Below are positions 17,590 to 57,479 of a stretch of 64,000 bases of DNA, in pieces. Under the pieces are notes generated by a model. That model did no database searches, had not been told where the DNA came from, and worked only from the letters and a program-made list of their open reading frames with translations. The translations under genes and the position numbers were made by a program. The number at the start of each line of letters is the position of its first letter. The first letter of the stretch is position 1. This DNA is from Tilletia caries. Lineage: Eukaryota > Basidiomycota > Exobasidiomycetes > Tilletiales > Tilletiaceae. The DNA is taken from NCBI GenBank assembly GCA_032718865.1, contig JALUTQ010000004.1, positions 1,178,001-1,242,000 of the forward strand, in the 5' to 3' direction.

Positions 17590-17690
17590 TGTTCCGGATT
17601 CGCGTGTCCAGGAGGCGGGCGTCTCTCCCCTTCGCTCTCACGTCCCGTCACGCGCGCTGTTGTTGTGTTTTTATGTTCTGTATACCAATC

Positions 17691-31950: not shown

Positions 31951-31960
31951 CCAGCCCAAG

Positions 31961-34264: not shown

Positions 34265-34274
34265 CCAGCCCAAG

Positions 34275-35737: not shown

Positions 35738-35745
35738 TCACCTTG

Positions 35746-36532
35746 TAAGGTTGTCCCCGGAGTTGACGCGGAGCTGGGGTTTTGCGGACTCCGCACTCCT
35801 CCGACGGAGGGCTCCGCCGGAGGCGGAGCGCGGAGCTCACTTTGGGGGAATTTTTAATCATAAAAAAGCACGGACTCCGCCTGGAGGACTCCGCCGGAAT
35901 TTACGCGGAGCGCGGAGCCCAATCCTGGGCCCACTGTCCAAAAGTGCGGAGCGCGGAGTCGTCAAAATAGCGTGAAAATTCCGGCGGAACTTCCGCGGAA
36001 TTCCGACGGAGCTGTGAGGTCACGTGATAGCCGAAAATAAGGGTCACGTGACCTCATTTTGGGTGCGCTCCGCCGGAATTCCGTCCAAGTTCCGCGGAAA
36101 TGTGCGGAATTCCGAGAAAATAGGCATCGTCGAGACACGCGCAGGAAATAAAACAGGCATCATCATCCGTTGAGAACCTCAAAATAGCACTGGAGTCAAT
36201 ACCGCAACAATGTCGGATGCTAAATGTATAGCTCTGATTGTACTAGAGTCATTGAAAGCAACTTATACCACCACTGCGCTCCGACGGAATTCTGCGGAAT
36301 TCCGAGCTCCGCACACACGGAGCACGGAGGAGCATTATGAAAACGCACAGAAAAAACGCGGAGCGCGGAGCTGGGATTTCAACTTTTGTATAATTCCGTC
36401 GGAACGCGGAGCTGGTTTCTTTCAGCTCTGTCTTAGTCTGCGGAGGCGGAGCTTGCCTCAAAAAGTCAAAATTCCGGCGGAATTTGGAAGTGCGGAGGCG
36501 GAGCCCTCCGCGTTACTCCGGGGACAACCTTA
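35746..36532. mobile_element. 787-bp hAT-type MITE, CGGAG family
   Basis: Flanked by TCACCTTG at 35738-35745 and 36533-36540 (8 bp, perfect). Terminal inverted repeat TAAGGTTGTCCCCGGAGT. The interior is rich in GCGGAGCGCGGAG and CCGGCGGAATTCCG motifs, with two runs of GTCACGTGA/TCACGTGAC-like sequence near 36020-36050. No coding capacity. It shares the TAAGG...CGGAG end style with MITE-A, hAT-B and the element at 48391. The copy-2 direct repeat begins two bases after its right duplication. Confidence 0.85.
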
Positions 36533-36542: not shown

Positions 36543-37505
36543 CAGAGGAGTTTTAAATTTGTGGCCATTGTTTCTGATTGGTACTTTGTTCCTGATTAAA
36601 GCTTATGTGTACAAGAAGTGCCCCTTCTACGACGAGCTGTTCCCGGTCCTTAAGGACCGAGCCTCTGTCAATCCGACCTTCTCTCACAGCACCGGGGACG
36701 GTGATGACCCCGCTGTTGCTGCTTTGCAACAGCGAGCTTCAGCGCCTGCAGGAGAAGATGGAGCTAGTTCTCCTGAGGAATTCTATCCTGGATGGGATGA
36801 CACTCATACTCAGTCGCAGACGCAGGGTGCCCGAGAGGATGCCAACGCACCAGCAGAAAACAATAATGGTCAGACAGCTGCTTCCGGTACAGCTGACCGG
36901 CCTAGTGCTTCCGCTGCCCGCGGTGCTTCCGCTGCCCGCAGTGCTTCCGCTGCCCCCGGTGCTTCTGCTGCCCCCGCAGCTTCTACTGCCCCCGCAGCTT
37001 CTGTTGGAGGCGCGCCTACTACCCCGGTAGCCGGGCCTGCCCGCCCGAAGCTTAAGGCTGCCACGCCGGCATTGGAAAAGGCTAAGAAAGAAGCGGCTCA
37101 ATCAAAAGGTAAATGGTATTTGATACAGACCATGAGCGTACACAAGCATCATATGGAAGGCTAAACCCAAATGCACGTTTATTGTTTGGTTTCCTCACAG
37201 GCAAAAAACGGATGTCCGAAATCGAGAAAGGAATCAACGCTCGCGGCGAGAAGCGCCTGAAGCTGGATTCTAAAATGAAGGAGGTCGAAATCCGCAACCT
37301 TGCTTTCGATCGCATTTCGACACGCGCTCAGCATCTAGAAGCTGACGGACTGTCTTCTACCCGCGCCTTCAAGAAAGCTTCTGAGGAGTACAAGATCCAT
37401 ATGAAGTCCTTCAAACTGGAGCTGGACTGGAATGACGAGGACGCAGAAGCAGACGGCTCTGCCTCTGACAGTGACTTCTCGAGCGACAGTGACGACGATG
37501 CTTAA
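36543..37505 (+). pseudogene. Harbinger-2 ORF2, 5'-truncated (copy 2)
   Basis: Retains only the last exons, from KKCPFYDELFPVLKDRASV (36615) through the Ser/Ala repeat to the acidic C terminus (37505). The whole Myb-like region is missing because the repeat begins in the intron before it. An intron (about 37110-37200, GTAAATGG...TCACAG) separates KEAAQSKG from KKRMSEIEKG. The C-terminal frame is intact here (SKMKEVEIRNLAF) where copy 1 is broken. Confidence 0.7.
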
Positions 37506-37747
37506 ATCTCAGAGGGTCCACCGCACCGGGTATACATTCTCTGTTCAGCACCCGATAAAGAGCCTGATCCTGCATCCAAATACAAAACACGTTCTATGCC
37601 ACCCTCACATCTTATACAATTGAGTATTGTCTACCTAAGTGATCACCAGTGACCAGACTCCACTTGACTTGTCGGTCGCTGACTGCAGATGTATGCAGCT
37701 CGCTAGCATCAGGGCTTTAAAGGTAAAGATAATCGATTTCCACGCCT

Positions 37748-39310
37748 TCATAGATCGCGCCACATGTCAATGAAAGCATGCAGCTTTGCCCGGAGTGCAT
37801 TTCCCAGCTCCACATCGCTCTCGTTGACTTCCTCCTCCGCCCCCGCCTGTATCTCCCCCCTCTTCCTCCAGCTCGTCAACCCTGAGAGTTGCTTCGTCGC
37901 GTAGATTCTGAAAGTCTCGTCCAAATAGCCTGCGTGCCTCTGCTCGCTCGACTGACGTAAAAACGTTCTCTATGTCATCCGAGCGTTTCTCCATGAGAAC
38001 GTTGTGCAGCATCACACAAACTCTGTCCTCTGATGCTGACCCAGACGTAAGCTAGTGCCTCCAGCCCCGCATTCTTGATCGACAAGCGTGTTCCTCGCAA
38101 GCTCTGCCATCGCAGCTTGAGCATTCCGAAGCTGTGCTCTACTGCCATACGGTGAGGAGAGCAGTGCTGATTGAAAGCGACCTCTAGAAGAGCAAAACGC
38201 AAACAAACCAGATATGAAACAAGTTAGCTCATCATTCTCCCAGACAACCTAAGCTGCTTATTTGTTTCTATTATTACCTTGTCTGCAGGCAACTGACTCA
38301 CTCCCCTGACACGTTTGTACAGCGGCACGATATGGGCACCAGGAGTGTATCCCGCATCTGCCAGCACATACTCGTTCTTCGAAAAGAATGCTTCAGGGTC
38401 TCGAGAGAGGCGCGAAGATCGGAACACCCTTTGGTCATGAGCGCTCCCAGAAAGCCCAACGTGTACAAGCCGAAACCGCTTGCGGTTATCTACCACAGCA
38501 AGGACGTTGTAACTGTAAGAGTACTGTTTGTGGCGGTTGAAGTAGTCGGGAGCATCTTTCCGAGCCGGAGCCGTGTAAAAGTTGATGTGTGTGCCGTCGA
38601 TGAAGCCGACACAGCCTGATAGACCCTTCTCGAACCGCATTTCCTCTCGAACCGAAGCTCGTTCCGTCGCAGTCGGCCACCAAACAAAGCGCTGCTCATG
38701 TTTGATTAATGCGCAGAGAACGCGATCTGTCCAAACTCCAAAGCTGCACCGTACCCTCTACAAAAAGACAGAAAGAATACATGAGCAGAGAATGACCAAT
38801 GCGAGGAACGTCAGCTACAGAATCACTACTTCGGCACCGGCCTGCAAGGAAGCAATCTAGGTTAGAGGTGCTTTACGTACCCGAGACTCCAAACTTATGC
38901 GCCACTTCTGGAATTGCAGCTCCTGATCCACAGTGTGCCAGACGCCATAGCACCAGTAGCAACTGATGTTCCACAGGGCTTTGACGTCGCGCATCTGTGA
39001 ACAAAGTGTCGGGCCTGATAAAGTGACAAAGCTCCTCGAACTCAGCATGGGAGACTCGGAAGAAACGACGAAACTCGATATTTTCCAACGCCAAAAAGTT
39101 AGCGCACTTGTCAGCTTGAGCGTGATGCTTGCGTCTCTGTGTAGAAGCGCGGTTCAGGTAACGAGAGCTCTGAACGCCGTCTAGACCATCATCGACATCG
39201 ATAAGATCTTGACCTGCAGCCTCATCTCCGTCAGTCTGCACCAGAACGAGAACCCGCTTAAGGCGTTTAAGACTGCGGATCAGCTTAGCTCGCTCAGTGT
39301 ACCGTGGCAT
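37748..39310 (-). pseudogene. Harbinger-2 DDE transposase (copy 2)
   Basis: Same architecture and shared lesions as the gene at 12570-14131: GFIDGTHINF, GSAHDQRVF, YVLADAGYT, VAVEHSFGMLKLRW. It has an additional 1-base insertion in a C-run near 37859 that scrambles the acidic tail, and one substitution in the DDE exon (SGCVGFIDG instead of SGCAGFIDG). Not expected to be active. Confidence 0.75.
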
Positions 39311-41539
39311 GGAGTTTGAGGATGGTGCTCGTTGTACTCTGTGAAGCTATTAAGGATCTTCCCGGAGTAGATCCCCGGAGCCCGGACTCCGGGGCGGCGC
39401 TCCGCTCAGCTCCTTCTGAGATCTGGCCAGCTCCGCGCTCCGCAGAATTCTTGTTGATCAGCTGGCGAGCACTCCGTGCTCCGTCGAAGTCGCGGTTGCG
39501 CGCAAGAATCTACTCCGCGCTCCGTATAATTTTCACAGGTGGACTCCGTGCTCCGCAAAATAGCTCCGCGGACTCCGGGGTACCCCGGAGTGTCATGAAA
39601 TGAGTCCAACATGGGCTCAGGAGAAGGTCAGATCTCATCGAAACAGTTCAATCGCAGCTTTAGAAGTCTATATCATAAGGATGAGCCCGGAGCGCCCCGG
39701 AGTGCTCCGTACTCCGGGGCCTATACTCCGGGGCGCTCCGCCCAGTTTTAGAGGGAGTCCGCGCTCCCGCAAAATGAGACACAGTTTAGAGTTTGCGCTC
39801 CGTACTCCGCAAAATTATTTCCAAGTCATGAGACGGCACTCCGTACTCCTGCTAATTTTAACCCTTCACATTTCTGGCGCTCCGTACTCCAGTAAATTTT
39901 TTGGCCCAAGATAATTTGAGCTCCGTACTCCGCACGTGCGGAGCCCGGTTACTCCGCAGGAGTCCGTACTGCTCCGGCCAAGTAAAATCTGCGTGACTTT
40001 CTAGTGACAAGACTTAGTGACAAGACTCCGTATATTGACTAAGACTACTGCAAAAAACCCTCCTCACTTATTGTCAGAACTCAGAAACTCCACCTTCAGA
40101 CGCTAGCGCAACAAAGGGAGGGCGGCTGTCCATGTTACGTTCCACAGACCACACTACTCATCTCCTTACCTTCTTCTTCTCTTCGACTCATCACGTTCAC
40201 GTCATTTTCCAGTTGCACTCCTGACAGAATCGGTACGTGTTTTTCACTTCCACCGCTTTCCCTGCCGATTGCGAATATGCTGACCTCCATTGGTATTCTA
40301 TAGTACTTGCTTCCATCATAATGCCCCCTCCTCAGACACTCCGGTCCAAACAACCCTCAGACAGTAGGCTCTTTCAGGCTGGTTTGCAGGGCGGAGGCGA
40401 TGACGTTGCAAGAGCCCTGTCGGTATGTAACATACCAGCGAACCGTCCCTGATGATCTGTAGTTCGCATAGACTTATCTTTTCCATCTGATCACACCACA
40501 GATCGAAGACCTCTGCCAGCTCTGGCCTTCGATTTTCCAGGGCACCTTCAGCCGATAGAACTTCGTCGCATCGCTCTCATGACTTACTCACAGGTGCGAT
40601 CCTCGCCTTCTCGTCTCCTCCCTCTTTCCAGGCACTGGCCTTTCTTCCCCTTGTGCTTGCATGCATATGCAGATGGAAGAAGCCAAGCTGTTCGATACCG
40701 GCAAGAAGACGCCACTTACCATCCGATTTTCCACTGTTGTGGCGAGGCCGGATCGGCTGATACTGCGCGTGACCCGCGTGGGCTTGCTATCAAGTTCCGC
40801 ACGGAGGAGGGTAACCTTGATTGGGTGTTCAATAACGTGAGCATTTTCTTCTTCTATTGCCACAACTTTGCCACTCTCAGCATCTACGCGCATGCTGACC
40901 ATCTTACACATCTTCGCCACTTACCACTGTCTTCTTCCTCCGCGACCCGGCAAAGTTCCCCCACTTCATTCACACCCAGAAGCGCGACCCTCAGACTCAA
41001 CTCAAGGACACCGACATGGTGAGCATCTTTGATATCTACGAGTTGCTTCTGCTTTTCGCTGACGAACCTTTCCTTCAATTGATTCCAGTTCTGGGATTAC
41101 GCATCACAGAATCCAGAATCGATTCACCAGTTCATGATCTTGTTCTCTGACCGCGGCATCCCCGCCGGACACGCCTTCCAGCACAGCTATGCCGGCCACA
41201 CCTCCAAGTTTCGTGGACGGTGTCTGTGCAGAGCATGACCGAGGCACAGGCCGAGGCCTTCCGTTACTCTGTCTTCAATCTCACCAGGGTATGTTGCCAC
41301 TCTACCCGCTTGACGCATCGTACAGGACTGACTATGGAACATGCTCAATTCCGCCTCCGCAGATCTGGTTGCACACAGACTACCCGCTCCGCCCCGTCGG
41401 CAAGATCACTCTCAACAAGAACCCAGGGAAATACTTCGCAGAGATCGAGCAAGTCGCCTTCAGCCTGTAAGGTGTCTGACATATGTAGGTACCACGCGTA
41501 CATTATTCAGCACCTCACAAGTTAACACTTCTATCCTCT

Positions 41540-41890
41540 CACCCGTACCGACGCGTGGTGACCGACGCGTGGTGCGGGTTGTTTTCTTCTCTATAATTTA
41601 CGCATTGATATATGGTATCTGCGCGCGCGACATGTGGTGCGCGTTGTTTTTATTTCACCTGAGACGCGCCGCGCGTCGACAAGTGTCACGTGGCGCGTGT
41701 GGTGTGCGACGCGTGGTGCGCGTTGGTTTCTCACGCGCCCAACGCGTGGTGCGCGTCACGTGCCACATATGGTGCGTGTTGTTTACAATTTTGGTGAAGT
41801 GTTGGTTCACGCGAATTTCCCATCGAAACACATTTTCGCGTGGTGAACCAACGCTCACCACGCGCACCGCGCGCACCACTCACCACCGCT
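41540..41890. repeat. ACGCGTGGTGCGCG-rich repeat in the catalase intron
   Basis: Seven or more ACGCGTGGTG(C/A)-type units, plus an inverted pair GTTGGTTCACGCGAA (41802) and TTCGCGTGGTGAACCAAC (41835). Mixture of CG-rich and T-rich stretches; no coding. Possibly a small non-autonomous element or one edge of the Crypton insertion. Confidence 0.5.
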
Positions 41891-43149
41891 TCCTCTCACC
41901 TCACCTCGCCACACTCACACTTCCCCTTTGACTCGTCCCTGCTCCCATGATGACTGTATGACTGTGTATGTATTTAGCCCGTGTCAAAGGATGACTGTGT
42001 ATTAACTGCTGGGTGATTTATGGTGACTGTTGGATGACTACTATCTGACGCGTCAGTTATATCAAATTTCGGTCACAAGTTTTGAGTGTGAAGTCCAGAC
42101 TCAGTCACAACCGCAGGACTCACCCAGTCAGGACTCATTTTCCTTGACAACCAGTTACCAAGAATCCTACCAGCTGATAATCACGATTGTCACCACCAGA
42201 GCTAGGTTCGTGTATGCCCTCAATGATGATTACAACGAGGCATACAGAGGCTTACAACTGGTTACTTCTTTCATTACAGGCAACAGCAATAGAAGGCCTG
42301 CCCTTCCACCGACCACCGACCACCAGGACTATGCCTTCGCATCAGGCTTGAGGCGTGACCTCCCCAACATCGTCACGGAGCGCACTGCGCAAGTCGCAAG
42401 TGGCGCAGGTGCCAGGTACGCATGATCCCCTCTCCCTCCGTCTCCCAATCAATCACTGCTTGGTTTCGCAGCTCGCTGATCACACTCTACTTGATCCTTC
42501 TACCCCTTTGCTCCTTCCATTCCATTCCCTCTCTGTTCCTTCTCTGTTCTGATCAGGTCTTGGTCCTCGCGCGTTGCGCTCTCTCTTGGCGCGTCTCTGC
42601 CTTCCCCGTTTTTCCCGGTCGACCAGACGGCAGACCAGATGTGAGCGTCCACTCCTTGACACTCTGCTCTTGATCGTTACTGAATCTCGCTCTCTCGTCT
42701 TTCCGCATTTCATTTCCATCTCAGACGCTACAGGCCCTTACCAACGTGGCCCTCGCTTTCTCATAGCAGAAGGCCGAAGCTGTAGCAGCTGCAGCTGCTG
42801 CTGAGATACGGTGAGTCAGCCTTTTCGTTCTTATTTCAGAGCGTGAGGCCGCAAACATTCTCTGACCTCGTTTCTCTTCTTTTTTCCCCTTCTTCCTTTC
42901 CATACACCAATACAGACTGATGACGCCTTTGGTCTGTCCGCCTCTCGTCTTGCCGTTTGTCCGTCACTCACAGCAATCACAATTCACAGCCTTTCAACCT
43001 CAAGTCCTCAACCGCGTGACTTCAACCCTGAAGGAAGCCGACCAAGTGTGAAGCGTGATCAGATACATTCAGTGGAAGAAAGGAGTAAAAGGTTTACAGT
43101 TGGAGGATAGATAGACAGTAGAATAATAGAATACATGTGAACCTACAGG
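41891..43149. other. Non-coding DNA 3' of the Crypton gene
   Basis: One plus frame of 131 codons (42030-42425) and pyrimidine-rich segments, none recognisable. Probably a mix of Crypton flank and relic introns. Confidence 0.35.
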
Positions 43150-46105
43150 CTACAGATCACCCAACGACAGGTCTGGGTAAGCAAGCGGCCGTCCGTCTTT
43201 GATGTGCTCTGATAGTTTTGCGAGAGACTTGTTCGACAGCTGATTCCGAGCGTGCTCAAGGAGCACCACGGCGACCCGCTCCGCGACCTTCTTCTCCACC
43301 GCGAGCTGCTTGACTTTGTTGATAATGCGCATGCGGCGCTCATAGTGTTTCCGATCCTTGCCGTCAGCTCTCCATGCCGCTCCCCACTGCGCGTCCATCG
43401 CCTCCACCGAAGGACCGCCTCTCAGCCCATCCTTATACTCCCGCCAGCGCTCTGCGCAGGAGCTCAGATCTCGGTCCTGGCTCATCACTGGAGGTGTCGA
43501 CTGGGACTGTGAGGCGGAAGCGGAGGTCGGTGGAGCTGTGGAAGAAGTGGGGAAGGGGGAAGCGCCACGCCGGAGGAGGGAAGTAGCTGCCGCCGGGGGG
43601 AGGGTCCAAGGAGAGGAAGAAGGGCGGAGGGGCCGAAAGAGAGAGCTACGAAGGAGGAGGGATGGAGAGCGACGGAAGGAAGGGGGAAGGAGGGGGTTGA
43701 GAACACTGTCAGCTGTGGCTTGATAGGAGCAATGTAAGACGGGCCGACTCACGTGAATCACTTTCATTGAGAGCAGGACCACTTGAGGCCATAACGAAAC
43801 CAAGCAACCCACGCAGGGTCGCATGCATCTCGCTCATCTGCTTCTGGTGCTGCAGCTGAAGCTCGCGCACCATCTCCACCACTGTACCGAGCCCATGATT
43901 CGCGTCCTCCCTCAGATCCTTCAACCTCTCGTCCACGTGCTGCTGCGTCGCTGCCGAGTGCGCCTGTATCTGTTCTCCGAGGAGAGGGAGAACGGCGCGC
44001 AGCTGATCGTCGCCAGAGGTGTCCGGCGCGTCGAGGGTGCTGAGCAGCTCGGCCTCGTATCGGCAAAACTCGTCGGAGGAGAACATTCCGTGCGTCCAAA
44101 GAAAGAGGTGAGGGTACTGCGCCTTGAGTACGACAGCGTCTTGCAGCACCACAGGACGCAGGCGAATGAGAAGGCGGACGAATGCACGTGCAGCAATGTT
44201 GGTTTCGACGCTGCTGCCATCCGCAGCCTGGCCCGTCTCAATGGCGCGCTCCCTGCACCAATGAAAGAACCACAATGACCGGATTAGGACCAGCAGCAAT
44301 AGAGACCCAACAGGAACATGGTTCCGAGTGATGGGAACCAGCGCAACCAACTGCGCAAGGCTCAGTGGCGCAAGCTCCAAGAAGGAGCAAGCAAAGGAGT
44401 CAAGCAATGAAGCAAGGGAGTCCAGGGGAGAAGAAGTCAAGAAGCGGGGAAGAGGGCGGAGCAGGAAAGGCAGGATGCTACTCACCAGGCGTCAGCCTGC
44501 GGGAATATGCGCTCCAGCAGCACCTGGGGCGGCTGGATGTCACGGCGGAGAAAGTAAGAACCGCCGTCTTGATGAAATCCCGCGTGTACTCGCAGAACTG
44601 GTCGGGGAAGTCGTGTGAGGTAACAAGTCTCCATGGTCGTCTGGTTCCATCGGCCAGCTCGACGGACTGCTGCCTCGCTGGCACCTCCAGACTCCGCCAG
44701 CTGCGCACCAGACTTGCGCGCAGCGTGCGTCTTTGCTGTGGTCAGCACTCCGCAGGCCTTGAACGCTGCATCCAGCGCCTTGCTGTGCGTCTGCTCGTCA
44801 ATCGATTCCGTCAAGCTCTTCGGAGCTTTAATGACCTTCAGATCGTACCATTTGGAGGAATGGCTGAGGTTGGGGAAAGGCTCGGCACTATGATGAAATC
44901 TTTGAAATTGCGCAGAGGAAAAGGGAGGTTGACAAGAATCGTCAGAGGCATAAGAAAACGAGGGGGCCTGGAAACATTGAACACAGCAAACTCCATGCTC
45001 ACCTGGAGAACAGATACAGGGCAAGCGCGCCAACTGGACACACAAACGCGTCTTTGTTCCGCAAGAAAGATCCGTATTCCACCCTGCCCGCCTGATTGGT
45101 CTTCCCGTTCGACAGCAAGAGAACCACAGCGAAGCAGTCCGAAGGACCTTCCCCTTCGAGCTGCAGATGATGAACGTCGGCGAGCTCCAGGTTCCTCGCG
45201 TTCGCACCTCGAAGAAGGGCAAAGTGGGAGATCAGAAAGGCCAGACGATCTCGGAAGCCAACCTCGCTGTTGCGTTGAATGAAGTAGTTGCTGACTTGAC
45301 CAAACTGAGCGAGTGTGTAGCCGTCCAAAGCTGTGCCTATGGAATGGTACATTCAAAACAAAACCACGGGGGCAAGCGTGTCAGGACCAGGGATCAAAAA
45401 AGGGAAGAACGAAAGACAGGGAGGAGCACATACCAATCCCGCGATCCACATACTCCCGCTTCTTCCGGTCACGTTCCTCAAGCTTGCGAGTGCACAGGAG
45501 CATGCGAACCGGTCCGGGACGAGGGTGAGGGGCGGAGTTCACGCCGCGGGCTTGTTGTTGCGTGTATAAGTCGATGATGGCCGCAACGTAGAGCCGCACG
45601 GTGCTGTCGGACAGCGTCTTTGGAGTCACATCGTCCTTGTGTGTTGCCTTCTTCTTTGTACGCTTGGGGGCACGATGGAGCACTCTGTCTTCCAAGAACA
45701 AATGTAACTTTTGAGAGGTGACTTGATAGCTACAAGAAGAAAAACAGACAGAGAGGACAATGGCTGGTCAAGTGTCAGATTCCACCATGAGTACCTCACC
45801 GAGCACCGAGCACAACCAACACAGGAACGCTGAGAAGGGAGATTGACTCACCGCGACATCTCATCAAAACCTTTCTCCTCAGCCCATTCCCTCCACTCCT
45901 TCTGCTTTGGCGCGTAGTTGCGAGTGGTGTTGTGCGGGCGGACCTCGTTGGCTCGTACCACTGTCCGCAATATCGATTCGCTCATAGCCACCTCCAACTG
46001 GGCCGAGCTATATGTCCGCTTTGCAGCTGCTGCGCTGGCAGGCACACTGCTTTGGCTGCTGCCGACTGCTGGAGTCGCAGCGGCTGTAGTTGTGTTGGCT
46101 ACCAT
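43150..46105 (-). CDS. Crypton tyrosine recombinase with GCR1_C-like domain, intact, six exons
   Basis: Exons 46105-45852, 45729-45434, 45336-45003, 44899-44486, 44252-43753, 43712-43150; all five GT-AG introns keep phase, giving 786 residues with no stop or shift. The N-terminal part (LEVAMSESI..., NTTRNYAPKQKEWREWA) is a core-binding-like helical region. Catalytic residues: Arg in FALLRGANARNLELADV, HAAR (His-x-x-Arg) in KTHAARKSGAQLAESG, AGRWN, and Tyr in CYLTRLP. The C terminus has a GCR1_C-like DNA-binding block (EYKDGLRGGPSVEAMDAQWG...WR...YERRMRIINKV). Known role: site-specific recombination of a circular intermediate, without terminal inverted repeats. Lies antisense within the catalase intron. 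The only transposition gene in the window with no visible lesion. Confidence 0.88.
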
Positions 46106-46797
46106 CAATCTAGCCTTGATCGCGCTGCCTTTGAACGGAAATGAAGCCTTGAGGACAGAAGGACAAGTGGGAGGGGAGCCTGAAGGAATCTTCCAGATCT
46201 GAAGGCAATATTTCTATACAAGCAGCTGCGATCACGCACTGTAAACCATCTGCGCAGGTATACAATCTCATTAGAAAAACGAGATCGGGAACTCTCAGAT
46301 TCTGTAGCTTCGCTGCGCGAGCCCGAATCACAAGTTGTCACGTGGCTGTGACTCTTGTGACTCACCAGCACACCGACGCATCCACATCACCACACCTCAG
46401 CGCAGCGCACACCACACAATGCGCTGCGCATCAGGGGCACCATGAAAGGTATAAAAGGAGCGCCCTCGCCGCCCTTCTTCCCTTCTGGTCCCCCCAGCTC
46501 TTTCCTCTCACACTCCCAGACAACTAACTTAGCAATCACAGATCATTGCAGAGTTAAAGTCTACTGTGTGAAGTCTGAGTCTCATAAAGTTTCATCAAGT
46601 GATTGAGAGAGCCACTTTCACCCACACACCTGTAGGACCACTGGTATACTGGTTAGTTATCTAAACATAGTAGCATAGGCCAAAGTTCAGCAGCGCGTCA
46701 CTTCTGTCTCTATACAACGAGCGGTACTACGCGTCCGACTGTCCAACACCAATTCTATTGTGTTTGCAACGACCTTATAACTAGGAAATCTTACACA
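46106..46797. other. 5' region of the Crypton gene and end of the catalase intron
   Basis: No gene. A TATAAAAG-like box lies at 46451 on the plus strand. Ends with ACACAG (46797), the likely catalase acceptor. Confidence 0.35.
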
Positions 46798-47340
46798 GCC
46801 CCTCCCAACTCGTTCCCAGCATCGAGCCCTCGGCCGACCCCGTCCTCCAGAGCAAGCTGTTCTCCTACTCCGACACCCACCGCCACCGTCTGGGCGTGAA
46901 CTACCAGCAGATCCCCGTGAACGCGCCTTTGGTGCCCGTGGCCAATTTTCAGCGTGACGGTGCCATGTCCGTCACGGGCAACCAGGGCTCGCGGCCGAAC
47001 TACTAGTCGAACATCTCGCCCCTGCAATACTCGAAGAAGGTCACAGTCAACGCGGCGCACGAGAACTTCGCCTCGGCCTCGATTGAGAACTTCCTCTCGC
47101 AGGTGGACGAGAAGACCCGCGGGCGCTGTGGGAGAAGGTCTTTGATGATGGGCAGAAGGAGCGCTTTATCCATAATGGCTCGGTACATTTGGGAGGGGTA
47201 AAGACGGAGAGCATCAAGAAGACGCAGCTGGGCATTTTGAAGCGGGTTCACCCTGACATTGCCCCAGCGCATTGGGAAGGAGATTGGCATCAGCGCTTAA
47301 AGGATGCTTTCCGTACCACCATTGAACGATCTTCACTACC

Positions 47341-48382
47341 CTTTTTTCTCATGCTTCATGAATTGCGGCCAACCCGGAGCAATCTCGAGACTGCCCCCTC
47401 TCTCTCTCTCCCGCGCTTTCCCTTCCTCTTGCTGTCGCTGCGACTTCTGCTCTCCACAGTTTCTGCCACAGCTTCTCCCGTTTCCTTTCTGGTGCAGATT
47501 GCAGCACACGCGCACGCTTCCCCGACATGCGGACCCTCGCTCCAGCCAAGTGATCTGTGTTTCTCACTCTCTCTCTTCTCCTAGGTCCTATCTATGACGA
47601 ACCAGCAGTCAGTAAACATCCATCCAACCCTTCGTCGTTGTCTTCTTCTCATTCACTCACTCTCTCTCGCTCTGCATCCACAGTACACTCTTGTGTCATT
47701 CCAACCAGTCTCTTTCGTCCTCGCATCGATTGCGACAACAGGGACCCCGATGGCGATACTCCCAGCAGACTTGTATCGATCCGACGACCAAGCCTCCCTC
47801 GCACACGCCCTCGCGCACTCTTCAGCCCCATCAGGGTGAGTGGACCCCAGGCCCCAGGTTACAGCAAGGTACGTAATCATCATCTACCTCTGGGCTACCG
47901 TACGTGTGTACCCTGGTTGCTCAAGCTCTAACCTCTCACCTCTCTCATCTTTGTATCCCCGTACGTCCTCCTTACTTTAGATCCGCACAGCAGCAACATC
48001 AGCGCAAGAGCAACAAGGTCAGAGTGAGTGCTTCATCTTCCGCTCTTGGCCTCTTCTGCGTCTTCTCGCGCTCATCAGCATCATCATCATCATCCACACA
48101 GCATCACAGCAGCAACTCCAAGTCTCCAACTGCGGAAGTACATCAGCAAAGTGAGTGTAACCCTCACTGCTTCGTTCTTCTGCGTGTCGTGTGATCCTCC
48201 CGACTCCCTCCCGCTCATCCTCATGCTTCGTTCTTCGTTCTACCTGGCCGCTGGCTGTGAAGTGAAGTATTGTGTGTGTGCTTGTGTATGTCTCTACCGG
48301 ACATTTACGCTCATTCTCACATCTGCATTCTGCAGCGCTCCCGTCAGATAACCAGTACGTTTTCTCTCACTATTTGCCCTCC
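47341..48382. other. Pyrimidine-rich relic DNA
   Basis: Short plus-strand frames full of Ser/Leu with splice-like CAG sites; CATCATCATCAT run near 48080. No family recognised. Ends at the duplication CCCCACAT. Confidence 0.4.
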
Positions 48383-48390
48383 CCCCACAT

Positions 48391-49188
48391 TAAGGATGGG
48401 CGCGGAGTAAGCCCCGGAGTGGGTTTCCCGGAGTTCCCCGACTAGTCGGGGCCTCACTCCGGGGGAGTACGGAGTACGGAGTGCATTTTCGAGGATTTAC
48501 TCCCGCTGATTGGATTCTGCAGGAGTACGGAGCGCAAGCCTGTCATGTCCCCGGAGTACGGAGTACGGCAAGGCCTGGTGCTAACTTTTCGCCGGAGTAC
48601 GGAGTGACTAGCTCGAATGCCAGACGGAGTGCGGAGTTTCCCCGAAACTCCGGGGCGCTCCGGGGCCTTGCTTTTTTCAAAATCAGGTCGCAATTTTGAA
48701 AATTCAAGTCAGAAATGGGCATATTTTTGCTCTGGTTTTTCAAAAAAAATTTGGCAAAAATTTCTTTTTCAGATTTCTCATTTGGGGTTCATACTGTGTG
48801 TTCTTGAGCTCTACGACCGCCAACGATGATTCTGCCGAACAAAAAAAACATGGATGGAAGAGCGGCAATCAATGTAAGGGTCCACATTTCTCAAGTTCTG
48901 TAGGACCTCTGCGAACTTTCCCCGGAGTACGGAGTTTCGGGGGAGTAGTCGCGCTCCGTCACCCCGGAGTACGGAGTGGACTTTGAAATTTTACTAAATT
49001 TAGCCGGAGTACGGAGCTAGCGCAATGAGATGGGGAGATTTTGTGCGGAGCGCGGAGTGGAGTTGGGACGACTGCCTAAAAATGAGCGGAGTACGGAGCG
49101 CGAAAAAGCATCTCAAAATCAGCCGGAGTCAGCCGGAGTAGGAGCCCCGGAGTACGGAGCACTCCGGGGCCCTCCGCGCCCATCCTTA
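48391..49188. mobile_element. 798-bp hAT-type MITE, CGGAG family, inside hAT-B
   Basis: Perfect 8-bp duplication CCCCACAT (48383-48390 and 49189-49196) and 17-bp inverted ends TAAGGATGGGCGCGGAG. CCGGAGTACGGAG recurs about a dozen times, concentrated near both ends, while the centre (48680-48880) is AT-rich. No coding capacity. End sequence and internal motif match the hAT-B family. Confidence 0.9.
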
Positions 49189-49196
49189 CCCCACAT

Positions 49197-50183
49197 GCAC
49201 ACACACAACGCTTGCACTCACGCCTTTTCCCTCAGCAGGATCCTCGCACACAGCCTCTCTCCGCAACCCAACGCCTCGCACAAGCCCATGTCTCAGAGAC
49301 AGGCTTTCGACAGACCCGCACCAGCTCGCTGTTGTAAATAACCCTTCTCGTGTTCGTGGTTTCCCCTCTCTCTCGCGCATGTACTTCGATGACTATGTTC
49401 TCTCTTTCTTTGTCCCCTGCCACCCAAATCACGCCACCGTGGAAGACCAACGCACTCATCAGCCCTCAAACTCGCCGCTGCAACACGCATCGACTCCGCC
49501 CGCTCCTGCCTCTCACACGTCACACGTCTCCACCTTACCCTCGCATGAAAGCTGGCGCGGGCGGGAAGCGTCGTCGTCGACTTCTCCTCTGATGGATCAT
49601 GGGATGAGTTCGATTGATCTTTCCCACGGGATAGCGTTCCTTCATCTCGGTCAGTGATGCTTGCTCCCTCTCCATTCCTCACTGCAGACAAATCACATAC
49701 GTTCAACACTACATGAGTTGAGGGCTGACTACGGCTTCGATATCTCAGAGCGCATATTCCTGACGTCCCTGTTAATATTTCCAACTCGTCCGGGGTTGAC
49801 TTTTTCTGTTCCCTCCCAACTTCTCGCTGACATCCCAAGAGACGCGCGGAACGCCAGTGAACATCATCACAAATGCTACAATTGACAATTGACAAATGGT
49901 GTGAGATTCAACAACGACTAGGTCACTAAGAGGTAGCAACTCTGAGTCATTCAGCAGCATGGACTCGAGTCGAAATTCCTCAGCAGTATTCGTGGTGTTG
50001 TATGAGCTGGTATTGGATCGGAAAAGAAGCTTTGTGGGAACGTTTTGATGTCGCAGCGGCCAGCGCAAGAACGACTTTGTTGTTGATATTGGCAGAAGTT
50101 GCCATCAAGGTTGAGGAGGAGTATCAGCCGACCGGTGCGGAGAAGTGGCAGACATGGCCGGTGTCGTCGTTTCGATGTCTGAA
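49197..50183. other. Relic DNA 3' of the hAT transposase gene
   Basis: Frames up to 200 codons overlap on opposite strands with no domain. No gene supported. Confidence 0.4.
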
Positions 50184-53100
50184 TCAGCTGAGGCTCATGT
50201 CGGCATCTTCGAACACTGAATCATCGTCGTGCTCGCCGTCTGCATCTCCCACCGAGTCGACTCTCTTCGTACGCTTCGTTGCCCCGTTGGCTTCCTCGGC
50301 TTCCTTCGCTTTGCGCTTGCCGTTGCGGATCCTTTCGCGCTTTTCCTTTCGAACTGCGGCCTCGCTCGACAGAGCATCAGGAAGGAGGGTTTCCGGAACT
50401 GCGCCCTCGGAGAACCACTTGCCGACCGTAACGAGCTGGGAGATCCTCTCTGCCTTGAGACGATAACGGAGCGGAGTCACAGTTCGACCAGCTCTGGAAA
50501 AAAGGCGCTCTACTTCGACCGATGTGGCTGTTGAATAGAAACCAGATGTATGTCAAGTGTCAGCAAAGTGCGAGCTCTGCGTAAAAGAGTACGGTACGAC
50601 TGACCAGGTGTACTGAAAACGTCCAGAGCCATGGAGGTCAGCCCATCATGCTCGTTCCCCTTCTTCCTCTCTGACCACCACCACTGCAGCGGGTCGATCC
50701 GTACGACAGTTCCCTCTTCTCCAACGTGCAGCATAGTTAATCCCGCGAGCCACTCGCAATGGCGTCTCGAGCCGGCGCGTTCTTCTGCCTCTCTTTCGCC
50801 AGTCGCATTAGAGCCTGCTTGGTCTTGTCGAGCTTGTCGAAATCTTTGGTCTGTGAGCCTTCGGCAATGTCTGCCTCCTCGACTCTGATCTCGTAGTGCT
50901 TGACAAAAGTGTCGCGCAACACCTTCTCCGCTTGCTTTTGCCAATCCTTGGGCCACTTGAGCACGTCCATGTAGGCTGCTCGGTAGTTTGGATGCAAAAC
51001 TGTCGTTGATGACGATACAACAAAAAATAGAGGTTAGAATGATAGTGAAGATGATCAAATCACATATATCGCCACAAGCCACGAGAATACTCACGAATGG
51101 CCATGGAATAAACATCAGCTTGCTCGGTAAAGCCATAATACTTGGCATTGACCAGGTGACCGCGGTTTGCAGCCAGTGGTGCATATTATACTATAGTATG
51201 TCACATTTGAAGCATAATGTACTATAGTATATAGTATGTTTTTTTTTTTTTTTGAATTTGAGCCACATACTATCCATAGTATCCAAAAAGTATACACTAT
51301 CTCCTGATAGTATACTATAGTATGCGGCGTAAATTATATGCCAATTGAAGTCTACTATATTCATACTATAGTATATAATGACAATTTCCGGCCAAATTGT
51401 GCCTTAGTATGACACTAAAAGTGTATTATAGAATAGAGCTAGTATGTCTGTATGACATATATAATGCACTAGAAGTATACTATAGCACAGAAATAGTATA
51501 CTTTAGTATACAACAAGCTCTTTGCAATGATCCTAGATACATCCTATTGTGGATGTTTCTAGGATACTCTTTTCATACTACTCTGAAAGTATAACATAGT
51601 ATAAAAAGAGGATACAACCAGTATACTGTTTGAGTACTATAGTACACTTGTATGCTACAGTAGGATAGTTCTAGTATGATTTTCCGCAAGTGAGGCAAAA
51701 CATACTATAGTCATACTATATTACCGCCGCCAAAACCAAATAGTATATAGTATGACAATCGAAAAAATGCCGGCAATTCGGGGCATACTATAGTATATTA
51801 CTTAAATAGCATATACTATTTAGTATATTATCGTAGGATACTATTGATAGTATGTTGCACCACTGGTTGCAGCCTGCTTTCAAACGTACTCCTCGTCCTC
51901 AGAAGCCTGAGCGCTCGCGAAGTACTCGTCCACATCTTCGAAGAGCCCGATCACATCGCCAATGGTGGGTGTGGTGTTTGCCGAGAACTTGAGCGTTGCG
52001 TGAGCTAGAGGGTTCAGCAAGTCAACAAGCTTACGCACGTCGGCTTCGTCGGAGCGCTTGAGCCGCTTGTCCTTTGGCACTGGGGTGTTGGGCAGCTCGG
52101 TGAACGCAATGATGGCTGGCCAAAGACTGAGACTACGCTGGAGCATGTTGACAGTCGAGTCCCACCGGGTCGCGACATCTCGAATGAGGGAATGAGGAGT
52201 TTTGAGTCCCAGTCGTCGGCAGACTCCCTGGAAGGTTGCGCGTTTGGTGGGACTGTAACGCACTGTAATTGCGAGCCACGCAAGCTTCCGAAGTGCCAGG
52301 CCAAACTCTTTGTTTCGCATCTGAAGTTCTTTGTGCTGTCGTGTGGTTTGCTCTTCGTTTTTTTGGTCCTGCAGTACTGCTTCGATGTCGGCATCATCAG
52401 CAGCGACCGCCGTAAGTTCCGGATTGAGAGCCGTCAATATTTCGAAGTCGTCTTCGTCCTCGAGGGCCACCTCCCCGTCCTCGTCGCCTTCAGCTCCTGG
52501 GTCCAGTTCCTTCCCATTGCCCTCATGGTCATCGTCGTCGTAATCTTGCTCCACCTCCACGTCCAAGCTGACATCGGCTGTGCCGTCTTCTTCGGCAGCT
52601 CCGTCGCCGTCTCTCTTACTCCGTCGCGGGTAGAAGCTTTTGAGCACCGCCTTGCTGACAAGATTGAGCACGTGTGCGGTGCATCGAACACGGCAAGACA
52701 TCTCCTTGGTGGAGTCGAAGCGAGGGAGACCGTCCATGTTGGCGAGCAGCCTCATCATTGTGTTGTTCTCTGAGGCATTGTCACTGACCACGTTCCAGAG
52801 TCGACCCGCAATTTTATACTTGTCCAGCACCTTGAAGGTAGCGCTGGCAAGGTGTTGCCCGTCGTGTTGGGTGAGGAAAGGAACCATTTCGAGGAGGCGA
52901 CGCACCGCTTAGCCGGACTGCTGGTAGCAAATTATGAGTTCCAAAAATGCGAACCCATTAGCACTCGTCCAAACATCCACAGCCAAATGAAAGCACCCTT
53001 TGACGTCGTCAAAGTGGCTGGTGAGAATCTTCTGCATACCGCAAAAGACGCGGGTAATGGCTCGAGCGATTGTGAATCGGCCCGGCATCAATTCCTGCTG

Positions 53101-54335
53101 GGCCTTGGGGAGGAAGGCAAGGAAATTTTATCCTCGATGATGGATAGTGGGCGACCTGATTCGGCAACCCAAGCGACCGACATCTGACGGGTGACGCTGA
53201 ACGGGAGGAGTGAGATGGTGTCCGATGCTGCAGTCGGACGCTGCGAAGCGAGCATAGCGGGAATCGTGGTTTGACTGCGTTTGTTCTGCTGCCGGAAGAT
53301 GTGGGTCCGGAGGTTGGAAGTCGAGCTCTCTGAGCAATGCCGGACGACCTCGACGGAGGGAGTGCAGCACAAGCACGGAAACGCAATGACTGCCTTCCCG
53401 GCCTTGTACTTGCTGAGAGTGGGAGGGCCATAGTTCAGGTAGACGGTGCTCGCGGTTTTTCCTGGGCCCGGCTGCCACTCGACTCCCTCTTCAGCCGCTG
53501 CTTTCTGGTCTGCTGCAGTCTTTTGAGCTCGCTTCCACGCGATGGAGGCGGCCTCTACAAGGAACAAAAATTCACACGTGGATGAGGAAACACATCAGCA
53601 AGGAAAATGCAAAAGACATTGAATCACTGATTGACTGATCTCACCGAGTGCCGCAGCTGGGCTGTTGTCCTTTCGCTTGTGAGTCGACGTCGAGGAAGCC
53701 GAAGACTGACTTTCTTCGGCGTCGGTGACGTCAATTGGCACTTCTGCAGTGGTGCCAGGCTGCGAGATATCGGCATCGCTGCCTTGAATCGCGATCGAGC
53801 TGGTGGAATATCGCAAGCGCTGCGAGGAGGGAGGTGGTGGTGGACCCATGGTCGAGCTGGGGCTGGAGAGTATCGAAGCTGCCGGAGAAAAAACACTGGT
53901 AATTTTTGGAGTTGCCAGGGACCCTTTTGACGGAACGCCTTTCGGCTGCGAAATCCTTCGGAGGCTCGAAACCAAGGAGGATCCTCCAGGACGGGAGCCG
54001 ATTGTACCTCCAAGACCGCGACTACTGCCGTTGCTGGATTTCTTGGCGGGGTCCGTCGCATCTGTCGACGAGGCTTGACGAGCGTTGTTCGTCAATTTTT
54101 GGGACGAGGAAAAGGGGGAGATCAGGTCCTCGTCGTCAGACGAGTCGGGATGGTTGGCGCGGTCGTAGGGGCGGGGTCTGGGGCGTGCTGGCTGGGCTGT
54201 GGCGGGGGACTGTGAATCGGTGGACTGCAAGGCAGCGTCTTCTGTGACAAACCCGTTGAGACCCGGAGGCGGTCGACGTTCTTGACTGGGGCGTGTCGCA
54301 TATCGGCGAGTAGAATCTTCCTCTTGCCCAGTCAT
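50184..54335 (-). pseudogene. hAT-B transposase, disabled by stops, frameshift and a MITE
   Basis: Start ATG at 54333-54335 (MTGQEEDSTRRY), Pro/Ser-rich N terminus, intron (about 53652-53555), then a BED-type zinc finger (PCLCC...SNLRTHI). After a frameshift near 53130 come GRFTIARAITRVF and the hAT motif HLAVDVWTSANGFAFLE, interrupted by TAA near 52908 before RRLLEMVPFLTQHDG. The catalytic core with an acidic insert, VATRWDSTVNMLQR and VRKLVDLLNPLAHAT follows, then TGA at 51880-51882 and a MITE (51174-51865). Beyond the MITE: NAKYYGFTEQADVYSMAI, intron, LHPNYRAAYMDVL, IDPLQWWWSERK, intron, and the dimerisation block SVEVERLFSRAGRTVTPLRYRL. Clearly hAT superfamily, once full-length, now non-functional. 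Confidence 0.85.
51174..51865. mobile_element. 692-bp AT-rich hAT MITE inside the hAT-B transposase gene
   Basis: Inverted ends CAGTGGTGCA / TGCACCACTG; 8-bp duplications TTTGCAGC (51166-51173) and GTTGCAGC (51866-51873), one mismatch. Removing it with one duplication restores the phase of the transposase frame. The interior consists of TATACTATAGTATA-type palindromes with a 15-nt T-run at 51240. No coding. Unrelated in sequence to the CGGAG family, so it needs a different transposase. Confidence 0.85.
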
Positions 54336-55050
54336 TGGGCGCGAGGGATAGACTGCGAGACAAGGAAAGGAAGACTGTCTTGAGGGGAAAAGAGACACAA
54401 GGAAGGAGATGTCAGGGAGAAGTTACGGAGAGTGAAGGAGGCTTCTCGCGAGATGATTTCCGTTCGTCTGTTCTTATACATCGCATAGAAGCTGTAGCCT
54501 GCACCGTAGAGCAGAGTGCAGAAGCAGCCCGGCGAACATCGGCGCGGATGATGTTCTGCGCCGTGCCGTACCTCAGTAGTCACTCGAGGAGATGGCTGCA
54601 CGAGGAGGATCAGAGTGTGCCGGCTGCCGGCCGCGAACCAGAGAGGGAGCCTGCACTTCATGAAGGACCTCAACGTGGCACTGTCTCATGGCTCTCCGCT
54701 CTCGGCCGAAAGCACTGTACTACCGCTGCACGTGACGAACGGAGCGCCCCGGACTCCGGGGGTCTATCCGGGAAACTGACGCAGGTCGCTCTCGCGCTCC
54801 GTGCTCCGTCAGAAAATTGGGCTCACAAGATTCAGCGCTCCGTACTCCTGCAAAATTTGGCTCAGCGGAGCAGGTTCACTCCGCGCTCCGGTAAGAAAAA
54901 TTGACGGTGCTCCGTACTCCGCCACACGGCGATCCCAGCTAAATTTCTCAAAAACTTCACTCCGTACTCCCGGCTCCCCCGGAGTGCGGTCCCGGATAAC
55001 CGGGGCGCTCCGGCAAAGCCGCTCCGGGGCTTACTCCGGGCTCATCCTTA
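54336..55050. promoter_or_regulatory. hAT-B right subterminal region and transposase promoter side
   Basis: 54336-54720 should contain the transposase promoter; no clear TATA box seen. 54730-55050 has repeated CTCCGTACTCC, CTCCGTGCTCC and CCGGAG motifs in both orientations, likely transposase-binding sites, ending in the terminal inverted repeat. Confidence 0.5.
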
Positions 55051-55437
55051 CTGTATCATTTCTTTCCAAGGGTTTACTGCCCCAAAAAAGCTGAAATACA
55101 CAGTATTTCGACCTGATTCGGCCGAGAAATCCCTCAAAAACCGGTCACGTGACTCAGTTTTGGCCATCACGTGACCCACTTTGCCATCCCCGGAGTCCGT
55201 CGGACTCCGGGGTCTGCTCCGTACTCCGGGGCTTTTTTGACAATGCAAGCAAACTCACTCCGTGCTCCGGGGCGTTGCAGCCATACCTTCGCGGAGTAGC
55301 TCCGCAAATCTAAAGCTAGTAAAAAACGCTCAAATCTCGCTCCGTGCTCCGTACCCGTGCAGAGCGTCCCCCGGAGTCCGCGGAGCTCCGGGGAATGCTA
55401 CTCCGGAGCCTACTCCGGGAAGATCCTTAGAAGCTAT

Positions 55438-55655
55438 TCGTCTATACGTACATGAAGCTGAGAACACGTCAAAGAAAATTGCGCTGAATTCACACTCCAC
55501 GTGGCATAGTCGTTTGGAATCTCATGGAAAATGATCAGTCCTGTTCTGAAGGTGCGGTCTGAAGGGGCTCTCTGTGAGGGTATTCAGTTCAAGGCGCTCA
55601 GGCAAGTTTTCTGCAGAAGCCGCCCTGAACGCGTCAGGGTTGAGCTGAATACCCC
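55438..55655. mobile_element. Harbinger-2 right terminus (copy 2)
   Basis: The last 30 bp (55626-55655) are the inverted complement of the Harbinger-2 left end at 10056 with one mismatch (GGGGTATTCAGCTCAACCCT...). A second, inverted, imperfect copy of the end motif lies at 55578. Together with 36543-39350 this gives copy 2 a right end but no left end. It directly abuts the right arm of the inverted repeat at TTA. Confidence 0.75.
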
Positions 55656-57479
55656 TTATTACCCCTTATGAAAACAAAACTAAATACCCCTTAACACGGA
55701 GTACGGACACCCAGGCGAAGTTTGAGAAGATTTTAAGGAGATTTGAAGAATTTTATTCGAGGGATGTTGCAACATTTTTTCTCGGCCGTAAAAATCTAAG
55801 GGGCAGATATAACCCCATACTAAAGTCTGGGGAACCAGCAATTTTACCGCCTAACTTTTTTTTACGGGTTCTTGCGGCAGATGTTGAGTAGAAAACACTA
55901 ATATTATATAATAATCTCAAGCGATTGGGCTTCAGAAAATTTGGGCGCTATGCCCGAGCGGTCTAAGGGGACTGACTAGAATATTCTAATTCCTACTCGG
56001 GATGTCATCAGTTAGGCTTTGCCTGCGCAGGTTCAAATCCTGCTGGCGTCGAATTACTTTTTGCTTTTGCGTGCAATCACTTTATCTTCCCTCACTCTGC
56101 GCGCTGCATCTTCCCTCCCTCTCTCGTGTCCCCTTTCGATCATGTTCTACCTTCCCTCATAGTTCCATCCGCACCGTTTACTTCTTGACTACAATGACTT
56201 CGTATCCAATCGCCTTGGCAGAAGAATTATCAATTTCAGTTGTTTGAAGTGAGCGCGACCTCAGCTCGCGAACCCGATGCCCTCAACACGGTTCCGCACA
56301 TTCGCTCGATGCCCTCGGTTCTTCAGGTGGATCTCAAAATTGTCCAGACTTTGGTTCGGTCCCAGTGTGTACAGCTGGTGGATCCGAAAAGGAAAGAAAG
56401 GTAGGTCAGTATCACTCAACGCGAAGCAACCAGGAAGGACATTGCGGAAACTCACACGACCCGGACAGTCCAAACATCGAATGCGCCATTCTGGCTCTGG
56501 CGCTACGGGCGTCCCCGGTGGTCTCGTCCGCAGCTGGATCTCAAACTTGTCGTCAGGATATTGCCCGCGTTTGCCCTCGAGTGCATTCGTTATCCACACA
56601 GGCATCCGAGCAAGCGTCCCAGGCGAAAGGGCCCGACCGGATGGAATCGGCGGAGTCGGTGGGACAGGGCCGACATCTGCTGCTGCCGCGATGCTAGGAG
56701 TGGTAGGAACAGGAGCGGTCGACGTCGGGCCTGCCGGACCCTCCGAAGCTGAAGGTGGTGGGACTGCAGCAGAAGACGACTCTGGAAGCGTGCCGTCGAC
56801 TTGCCCGGCAGCGTCGACATCCGACCCGAGGGAGACATGACCCTGCTCGGCGAGCCGGCACGCAGGCTACCACTGTCCTCCACGCTGAGCAAGGTGCGCT
56901 TCGTCGGAGAATTCGTCCGACTGTCCATATCCGACTCCTCCGATTCCGAGTCGTCGAGAGAGCCAATCTCCTGAAACGGCAGGCCATCGAGCGAGTTCTT
57001 CGTCGACTTCGATCCGCCGTTCGACAGTGCTCCCCCTGGATCACCGGAGCCCTCGTTCATGGCTCCCCTGCCGATCCCATGGAGGGCCATCTGGGCCTTC
57101 TTCTCAGCGTCCGCTGCCGCACGGGCGCGTTGCTCCTGGATGTGATAATGAGTGTCGCGGGTGTACTCGACTTCGGGAACTCGTCGGAATCGGTGGAAGT
57201 ACTTGCCGCAATTCGAACACAGGCTCTTGTCTCCTAGCGGTCCCTTCCGTCGTCCAGGTCCGAGCGAGCCAGGAATTCCACAGTTCGAGCAGTGCCATAA
57301 GCCGTCAATCAGATTCGGCTGGAGATGGGCATATTCAGGCGGCCGAACAGGAACTTGCTTCGGACGGCCCGAGCCAGACCTCTTGTCGGCGTTTTCCGCA
57401 GAAGGCTTGGAAAGGGGCGGAGACTTCGGAGGAGCTGACGGAGTAAAATGAGGCGCGTCGGCCTCCTGTCTCCGTCCCA
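55656..57479. repeat. Right arm of the large inverted repeat (partner 1-1827)
   Basis: See the left arm. The inner boundary coincides with the Harbinger-2 terminus; the outer limit is unknown because the partner is truncated by the window. Confidence 0.9.
55944..56051 (+). tRNA. tRNA-Ser (anticodon AGA) with intron, right-arm copy
   Basis: Type II tRNA: D arm TGCCCGAGCGGTCTAAGGG, anticodon arm ACTGA-CTAGAA-(intron ~25 nt)-TCAGT, variable arm AGGCTTTGCCT, T arm GCAGGTTCAAATCCTGC, discriminator G. A T-run follows at about 56056-56060 (pol III terminator). Identical to 1430-1537 in reverse. Confidence 0.88.

Follow-up and report, generated by a model that had tools for sequence, protein, structure and literature searches.

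A five-level nest of transposable elements in Tilletia caries, with a likely later duplication running through it

The stretch analysed here, referred to as the window, comprises 64,000 nucleotides of contig 4 of Tilletia caries assembly GCA_032718865.1 (C4:1178001-1242000; the genome is 38.1 Mb in 40 contigs, each designated by C and a number) and holds a series of transposable elements inserted into one another (Table 1). From the outside inwards these are a PIF/Harbinger element, Harbinger-2; a miniature inverted-repeat transposable element (MITE), MITE-A; a hAT element, hAT-B, which carries a fragment of a catalase gene; a solo long terminal repeat (LTR) within that fragment; and a Crypton within the LTR. 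Two more MITEs lie in hAT-B. This order was read from the ends of the elements, from their target duplications and, for three levels, from uninterrupted relatives elsewhere in the genome; judged from these sequence comparisons, the nest of five elements with a readable order is real, and the order is well supported. The initial annotation of this DNA had described a five-deep nest of DNA transposons whose insertion order could be read from target duplications. The order Harbinger, MITE-A, hAT-B stood, but the depth of five holds only if the solo LTR is counted, and both the outermost layer and the inner anatomy and order had to be revised, a solo LTR in catalase coding sequence having been taken for an intron. 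A survey of three Tilletia species reports repetitive DNA of 7.8-13.7% in most assemblies and 37% in a single isolate with a PacBio and Illumina assembly (PMC9172201).

Table 1. Features of the nest and of the duplication through it, in window coordinates (TIR, terminal inverted repeat; YR, tyrosine recombinase; MULE, Mutator-like element).
Feature	Position	Strand	Remarks
Harbinger-2 (PIF/Harbinger), level 1	10055-55656	not assigned	left end AGGGGTATTCAG, right end CTGAATACCCCT; now 45.6 kb across
MITE-A, level 2	39351-55429	+	20-bp perfect TIR; GAAGCTAT duplicated; 696 bp without hAT-B
hAT-B, level 3	39676-55050	not assigned	17-bp perfect TIR TAAGGATGAGCCCGGAG; duplication CTATATCA / CTGTATCA
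Catalase gene fragment in hAT-B	40682-41465 and 46796-47362 (span 40682-47362)	+	degenerate, split by LTR
Solo LTR, level 4	41466-46795 (41466-42058 plus 46337-46795)	+	1052 bp; TG...CA; 5-bp duplication CAGCC; in catalase coding sequence
Crypton (YR element), level 5	42059-46332	-	inside solo LTR; AGTT 4-bp direct repeat each side
TAAGGAT-type hAT MITE	48391-49188	not assigned	in hAT-B between catalase remnant and transposase; duplication CCCCACAT
hAT-B transposase frames	50184-50552, 51883-52908, 53091-53594, 53598-54422	-	interrupted by the MITE at 51174-51865
AT-rich hAT-like MITE	51174-51865	not assigned	end CAGTGGTGCA; in hAT-B transposase; duplication TTTGCAGC / GTTGCAGC
S, first duplication copy	11400-15082	+	Harbinger-2 (part), left half of MITE-A, hAT-B (first 586 bp)
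S', second duplication copy	36543-40260	+	36543 is a breakpoint, not a transposon end
M	15083-36542	+	separates S from S' by 21.5 kb; additional copy of C21:167987-160501 (minus)
Helicase-bearing insertion in M	18024-28955		10.9 kb; 13-bp inverted ends TACACCGCCAACC; PIF1-type helicase
MULE in M	about 31960-34264 (31940-34290 with its surroundings)		long inverted ends; apparent CAGCCCAAG target duplication
hAT MITE at right edge of M	35746-36532		perfect duplication TCACCTTG; 10 bp from S' breakpoint

The ends of MITE-A, with their perfect TIRs and GAAGCTAT on both sides, were borne out by comparison of ends and flanks. The left half of MITE-A recurs almost unchanged at 14172-14496, and the genome contains at least 40 near-full-length copies of this half (at least 323 of 325 bases), two of them in the window. 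Copy numbers from genome searches in which the best candidates only were scored are lower bounds (40 of 115 for the MITE-A left half, 40 of 121 for the short Harbinger members, 40 of 45 for the LTR region, 40 of 180 and 40 of 273 for the hAT-B region, 40 of 249 in another genome search, and 39 of 42 with a query from block M, described below). Six copies outside the window, taken from the 38 other near-full-length copies listed, were fetched for comparison. MITE-A without hAT-B aligned unbroken to all six, each of which contained the CTATATCA-type site once and was continuous through it, as expected of empty sites at the hAT-B insertion point; perfect 8-bp duplications of their own flanked all but one (L008, one of the fetched loci, which are numbered with L), where no matching duplication was present. 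Of the two empty sites named for checking in the initial annotation this is one; as to the other, for MITE-A in Harbinger-2, both Harbinger-2 bodies of this genome carry MITE-A.

The ends proposed for hAT-B and its perfect TIR were likewise upheld, the flanking CTATATCA and CTGTATCA agreeing at seven of eight positions. Elements of the hAT superfamily have short TIRs, with ends of the CAG... type, and produce 8-bp target duplications. Such duplications accompany TIRs here, perfectly in MITE-A and in the MITE at 48391 and with 7/8 bases in hAT-B. In its 8-bp duplications, its 17-bp TIR and its Dimer_Tnp_hAT domain hAT-B is thus like other members of the superfamily, but it has a degenerate catalase fragment aboard and its ends read TAAGGAT... 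rather than CAG....

As a control for chance, every pair of 15-bp inverted repeats in the window, 1764 in all, was scanned for an 8-bp flank match of at least 7/8. Thirteen pairs passed. Seven of them, whose flanks are palindromic, lie in an inverted repeat of the SNF5 region; the remainder consists of one pair each for the MITEs at 35746-36532 and 48391-49188 and two pairs each for the right ends of MITE-A and of hAT-B. The duplicate left partners, at 14172 and 39351 for MITE-A and at 14497 and 39676 for hAT-B, are identical. When the flanks were shifted instead, each of four shifts yielded 1 to 3 pairs, which were not inspected singly, and twenty Markov-1 sequences yielded two pairs in total, with 13-bp repeats. 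For the right ends paired in the initial annotation a second left partner of equal quality exists, since the left ends fall in a 3.7-kb direct repeat. The annotation does not take this into account, but the nesting itself stands.

Within hAT-B, the first of the transposase frames in Table 1 matched Dimer_Tnp_hAT (PF05699) at 9e-5, with 22.6 bits against a cut-off of 21.4. The second, core frame had no hAT match in Pfam, and the last two frames had no Pfam match. Over its whole length the core frame is 82% identical to the Tilletia indica protein CF319_g7240; nine related proteins were found, among them one of T. walkeri at 48% identity and proteins of T. caries, T. laevis and T. controversa at 70-93% over 12-85% of the length. 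One of these relatives is named AC transposase and two bear other Pfam entries. No second long copy of hAT-B was seen among the best 40 of 180 and the best 40 of 273 genome candidates. Both MITEs that had been placed inside hAT-B were recovered, the one described as same-family being a member of the same superfamily with CCCCACAT duplicated, and the foreign one in the transposase having flanks, TTTGCAGC and GTTGCAGC, that agree at 7/8. The latter MITE had at least 50 matches elsewhere with 76-97% identity, many of them partial, among the best 40 of 273 candidates.

Separate frames of the catalase fragment matched Pfam, one the family Catalase (9e-15) and another Catalase-rel (1e-9), and the pieces of the fragment lie in different reading frames, indicating that it is degenerate. 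A related locus at C15:907933-909582, presumably the native catalase gene, is 81-91% identical. The Crypton had been assigned to an intron of this catalase gene. Instead, the Catalase profile continues across the inserted stretch, with positions 275-308 matched just before and 308-376 just after it, and the matches to C15 meet there as well, one ending at C15:908505 and the next starting at C15:908509; the insertion is thus within coding sequence, and there is no intron at this point. Elsewhere in the genome the 3' part of the catalase occurred at only two places, both on C15 (all five candidates scored), which gives no indication of its multiplication by hAT-B.

The inserted stretch begins with TGTAAGG, ends with TTACA and has CAGCC at both flanks. 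The outer parts of this stretch (41466-42058 and 46333-46795) together make up a single 1.05-kb repeat that is found genome-wide and is paired 8.05-8.9 kb apart in several places (best 40 of 45 candidates), from which we identify it as an LTR. The features of an LTR retroelement are thus present, namely TG...CA ends, a 5-bp target duplication and paired copies elsewhere. Five of the seven fetched LTR copies are collinear with both halves, and the remaining two (L065 and L066) match the left part only. The solo LTR is a layer that the initial annotation had missed. The same LTR recurs at steps of 8.05-8.12 kb on C7 (2273668, 2281725, 2289779 and 2297839) and on C34 (601728, 609843 and 617955), a regular spacing that looks like that of tandem retroelements with shared LTRs.

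All five LTR copies that span the Crypton site are uninterrupted, and judged against these copies the Crypton is bounded on both sides by the direct repeat AGTT. Its domains, NDC10_II (2e-23) and GCR1_C (2e-17), correspond to the tyrosine recombinase plus GCR1_C architecture of CryptonF. CryptonF elements were described in 2011 as combining YR and GCR1_C with direct repeats of 4 or 6 bp, 6 bp being the commoner in fungi (PMC3212892). The element in the window shares this architecture and the short direct repeats at the ends, but differs from most fungal CryptonF elements in that account in having a 4-bp repeat, and it lies within a solo LTR (PMC3212892).

The relative ages of the layers were approached through divergence from family majorities. 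The LTR differs from a five-copy majority at 5 of about 1050 positions, those copies themselves differing at 3-10, and MITE-A differs from a six-copy majority at 13 of 696, where the copies differ at 12-20. Few as the copies are, these divergences agree with the nesting order in making MITE-A older than the LTR.

The outermost element, Harbinger-2, has a DDE_Tnp_4 match (PF13359, 1e-18) in both copies of its exon, one of which is the transposase exon at 38227-38757. Only two close copies of its body were found in the genome, both inside the window (all three candidates scored), with weak partial matches of 67-78% identity on C22. Nine short members of the family were fetched, in which ends of the 10055 type and of the 55656 type are about 310-330 bp apart or adjoin. 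Flanks were read in eight of these, the ninth (L052) not matching the pattern, and perfect 3-bp duplications were present in seven of the eight, the exception being L058. The target duplication of the PIF/Harbinger superfamily is TWA; the duplications of the short members are of the form NNT, not TWA alone. Harbinger-2 itself has a short TIR. A candidate empty site for it was identified on C6 (L051), in which the left flank ...GGACCATAAT and the right flank ...ATGAAAACAAAACTAAATACCCC are joined as CCATAATGAAAACAAAACTGAATACCCC; the match is short, and from it Harbinger-2 is likely to be a single insertion. Two of the Harbinger-2-type MITEs, L056 (C40:878201-878950) and L059 (C21:378751-379500), have identical flanking bases, and a larger segment around them may have been duplicated.

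On either side of Harbinger-2 the SNF5 (SMARCB1) region is present as a 4.6-kb inverted duplication, from -2727 to 1824 and from 55658 to 60211 (window coordinates, C4). The left copy is in longer open frames, and the right copy is cut in its 5' part. In 300-bp bins the arms are mostly 98-100% identical over the innermost 1.8 kb; beyond it the figure is 96-100%, and over the last 0.9 kb at the outer edge it is 92-95%, as if the arms had been partly homogenised. The best match of the gene was 72%, and the nearest among named records, that of T. horrida, was 67% identical over 38% of the query. The inner edges of this repeat (1787-1824 and 55658-55694) form the inverted end pair of another Harbinger-like family, with AAGGGGTATTCAGTTTTGTTTTCATTA on the left and a DDE_Tnp_4 frame at 3037-4305. 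Harbinger-2 may therefore sit inside an older Harbinger-like element, which would make six levels; a left end of the older repeat was looked for in three other loci and was not found.

The initial annotation had begun a second Harbinger-2 copy at 36543. This position is the breakpoint of a 3.7-kb direct duplication and not a Harbinger end. Alignment of the two copies of the duplicated block, S and S', over 3680 positions shows 14 substitutions (0.38%), and there are five indels, of which one, of 36 bp, consists of two units of an 18-bp tandem repeat in a Harbinger-2 reading frame (11743-11845 compared with 36886-37024). The block starts within Harbinger-2 and ends 585-586 bp into hAT-B, with no transposon end at either point. 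The Harbinger left end is found with the left copy, which lacks any right end; the right ends of all three elements go with the right copy, which lacks a Harbinger left end.

Between the copies lies M, which is collinear with its counterpart on C21, is cut mid-gene at both ends and is enlarged by the three transposable element insertions listed in Table 1. Its identity to C21 is 96% at 15083-18023 and 85-89% (84-89% under other alignment settings) in four further collinear pieces at 28956-35746. On C21 the first gene is open over 1158 codons counted from stop to stop, whereas the copy in M lacks the beginning and has an internal stop. Both junctions of M are outside any transposon end; the left one, CCGCTTTC against GTTCGTCC, shares 2 bp with C21, and the right one, CACCTTGTT against CAGAGGAG, shares none. 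Within the helicase-bearing insertion, the stretch 18214-27673 matches C32:198424-207901 piecewise at 99% identity, with 1133 bp (19066-20198) inverted between the copies. The two ends of M were noticed by eye to read in frame when placed side by side; an excised or circularly permuted circle was ruled out, as M is collinear with a linear segment of C21.

Taken together, we consider it quite probable (roughly 85%) that the locus arose by successive ordinary transpositions followed by a tandem duplication with templated insertion. Harbinger-2 would have inserted into older repeat DNA with a 3-bp duplication, MITE-A into Harbinger-2 with 8 bp, hAT-B, with the piece of catalase gene already aboard, into MITE-A with 8 bp, and a retroelement, now reduced to a solo LTR, into the catalase coding sequence with 5 bp; the Crypton would then have integrated in the LTR with 4 bp. 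The MITEs at 48391 and 51174 would also have entered hAT-B, and their insertions are not ordered in time relative to the LTR. At some point after the hAT-B insertion S would have been duplicated directly, with M placed between the copies, if a broken end at 15082 was extended with a diverged relative of the C21 segment as template and afterwards rejoined the nest at a point 3.7 kb upstream. The sequence itself shows the element ends and their duplications, the empty sites for hAT-B and for the Crypton, the unbroken catalase profile and C15 match at the LTR, the identity of S and S' and the collinearity of M with C21. The repair mechanism of the duplication, the time of the catalase capture and the relative ages are matters that we infer, and tandem duplication with templated insertion would be the likeliest route to S-M-S'. 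Duplicated flanks and the inserted copy of a distant sequence are seen; the microhomology at the junctions comes to only 2 and 0 bp.

Several observations weigh against this history. At its outermost level, the flanks of Harbinger-2 are not identical (AAT and TAT), an extra 10-bp tandem repeat is present on the right, and the right flank falls within an inverted repeat; of the three candidate empty sites, L050 joins the flanks over about 15 bp only and L049 not at all. Given the short empty-site match, the unequal flanks and the tandem repeat, level 1 is likely rather than clean. The divergences of the layers are based on few copies and carry no clock. For the duplication, M differs from C21 by 4-15% (about 4% at 15083-18023 and 11-15% at 28956-35746) whereas S differs from S' by 0.4%, so that C21 was not the immediate template of M, and no closer donor was found with queries 15083-25000 and 34300-35745 (39 of 42 candidates scored in one search), the middle of M, 25000-34300, lying outside these queries. 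Finally, S-M-S' is read from an assembled sequence, in which a misjoin could have arisen.

This last point, together with the near identity of S and S' and the divergence of M from its closest relative found, would fit an assembly artefact in which two haplotypes or nuclei were joined, or a chimera was formed, and the true nest is continuous. However, the junctions of M, with 2 and 0 bp shared, offer no overlap from which a misjoin could result, S and S' do differ by the substitutions and indels counted above, and next to the S' junction M contains a MITE of its own that is flanked by a perfect target duplication; we regard an artefact as unlikely. The existence of two Harbinger-2 bodies 25 kb apart might also be read as two independent insertions of that element, but in both copies MITE-A and hAT-B are inserted at identical positions and have identical left duplications, the repeated block spans from the Harbinger-2 interior to the hAT-B interior, and inspection of the sequence found neither a second Harbinger-2 left end beside 36543 nor a right end beside 15082. 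Two insertions, hardly credible on these grounds, were rejected on the shared insertion sites and on the ends, of which one copy has the left only and the other the right only.

The manner in which M arrived is less settled. It could be a broken fragment captured by end joining, or the product of unequal exchange between two nest-bearing chromosomes, in place of template switching, and both the scarcity of microhomology at its junctions and its ends in mid-gene speak for this. Plain end joining alone, however, does not duplicate 3.7 kb of target, and unequal exchange needs a second nest, for which no further close Harbinger-2 body was found (all three candidates scored), leaving these routes possible but rather doubtful. 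About as tentative is a further reading, in which M would have been copied by template switching, during repair of a break in the nest, from a diverged homologue and not from the C21 locus of this genome; the homologue would be either a paralogue since lost or the corresponding locus of another lineage, encountered through hybridisation.

Transposon nests are a known kind of structure, whereas a duplication with a large insert through a nest is less usual. In the nested transposons of plants, reportedly as on chromosome 3B of bread wheat and in reconstructions with REANNOTATE, younger elements split older ones and their order is obtained from the interrupted copies. The nest described here differs in being that of a fungus, in combining two kinds of DNA transposon with a Crypton and a solo LTR, and in the later segmental duplication through it. 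Among the papers listed on nested elements of fungal genomes with Cryptons, hAT and Harbinger, no title or opening of an abstract described such a nest, and among those listed on gene capture by hAT elements with catalase none described such a capture; absence is not proven in either case. ToxTA (formerly ToxhAT), found in the Sanctuary and Horizon Starships, is likewise presented as a gene-carrying DNA transposon nested in a larger fungal element, but it differs from the present case in its outer element, a Starship instead of a Harbinger, and in its cargo, which is in use and not broken as it is here (PMC12506042). Complex insertions in the human genome, in which a distant segment is inserted, copy number changes close by and the junctions show microhomology, have been ascribed to template switching (PMC5120786). 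S-M-S' resembles these templated insertions as described there, but it lies in a fungal transposon nest and its mechanism is deduced from one assembled locus (PMC5120786).

Most layers of this nest can be checked against uninterrupted relatives. The general importance of the finding is modest, since nesting itself is common, but the locus illustrates a pitfall for annotation, in that one transposon gives the impression of a pair of partial copies, and an LTR inserted in coding sequence that of an intron. The later duplication would stand as a base-level record of a large repair event in transposon DNA, and if M was indeed copied from a diverged homologue of the C21 segment, the nest would record, at the level of single bases, five steps of transposition followed by replicative repair that used foreign or lost DNA.

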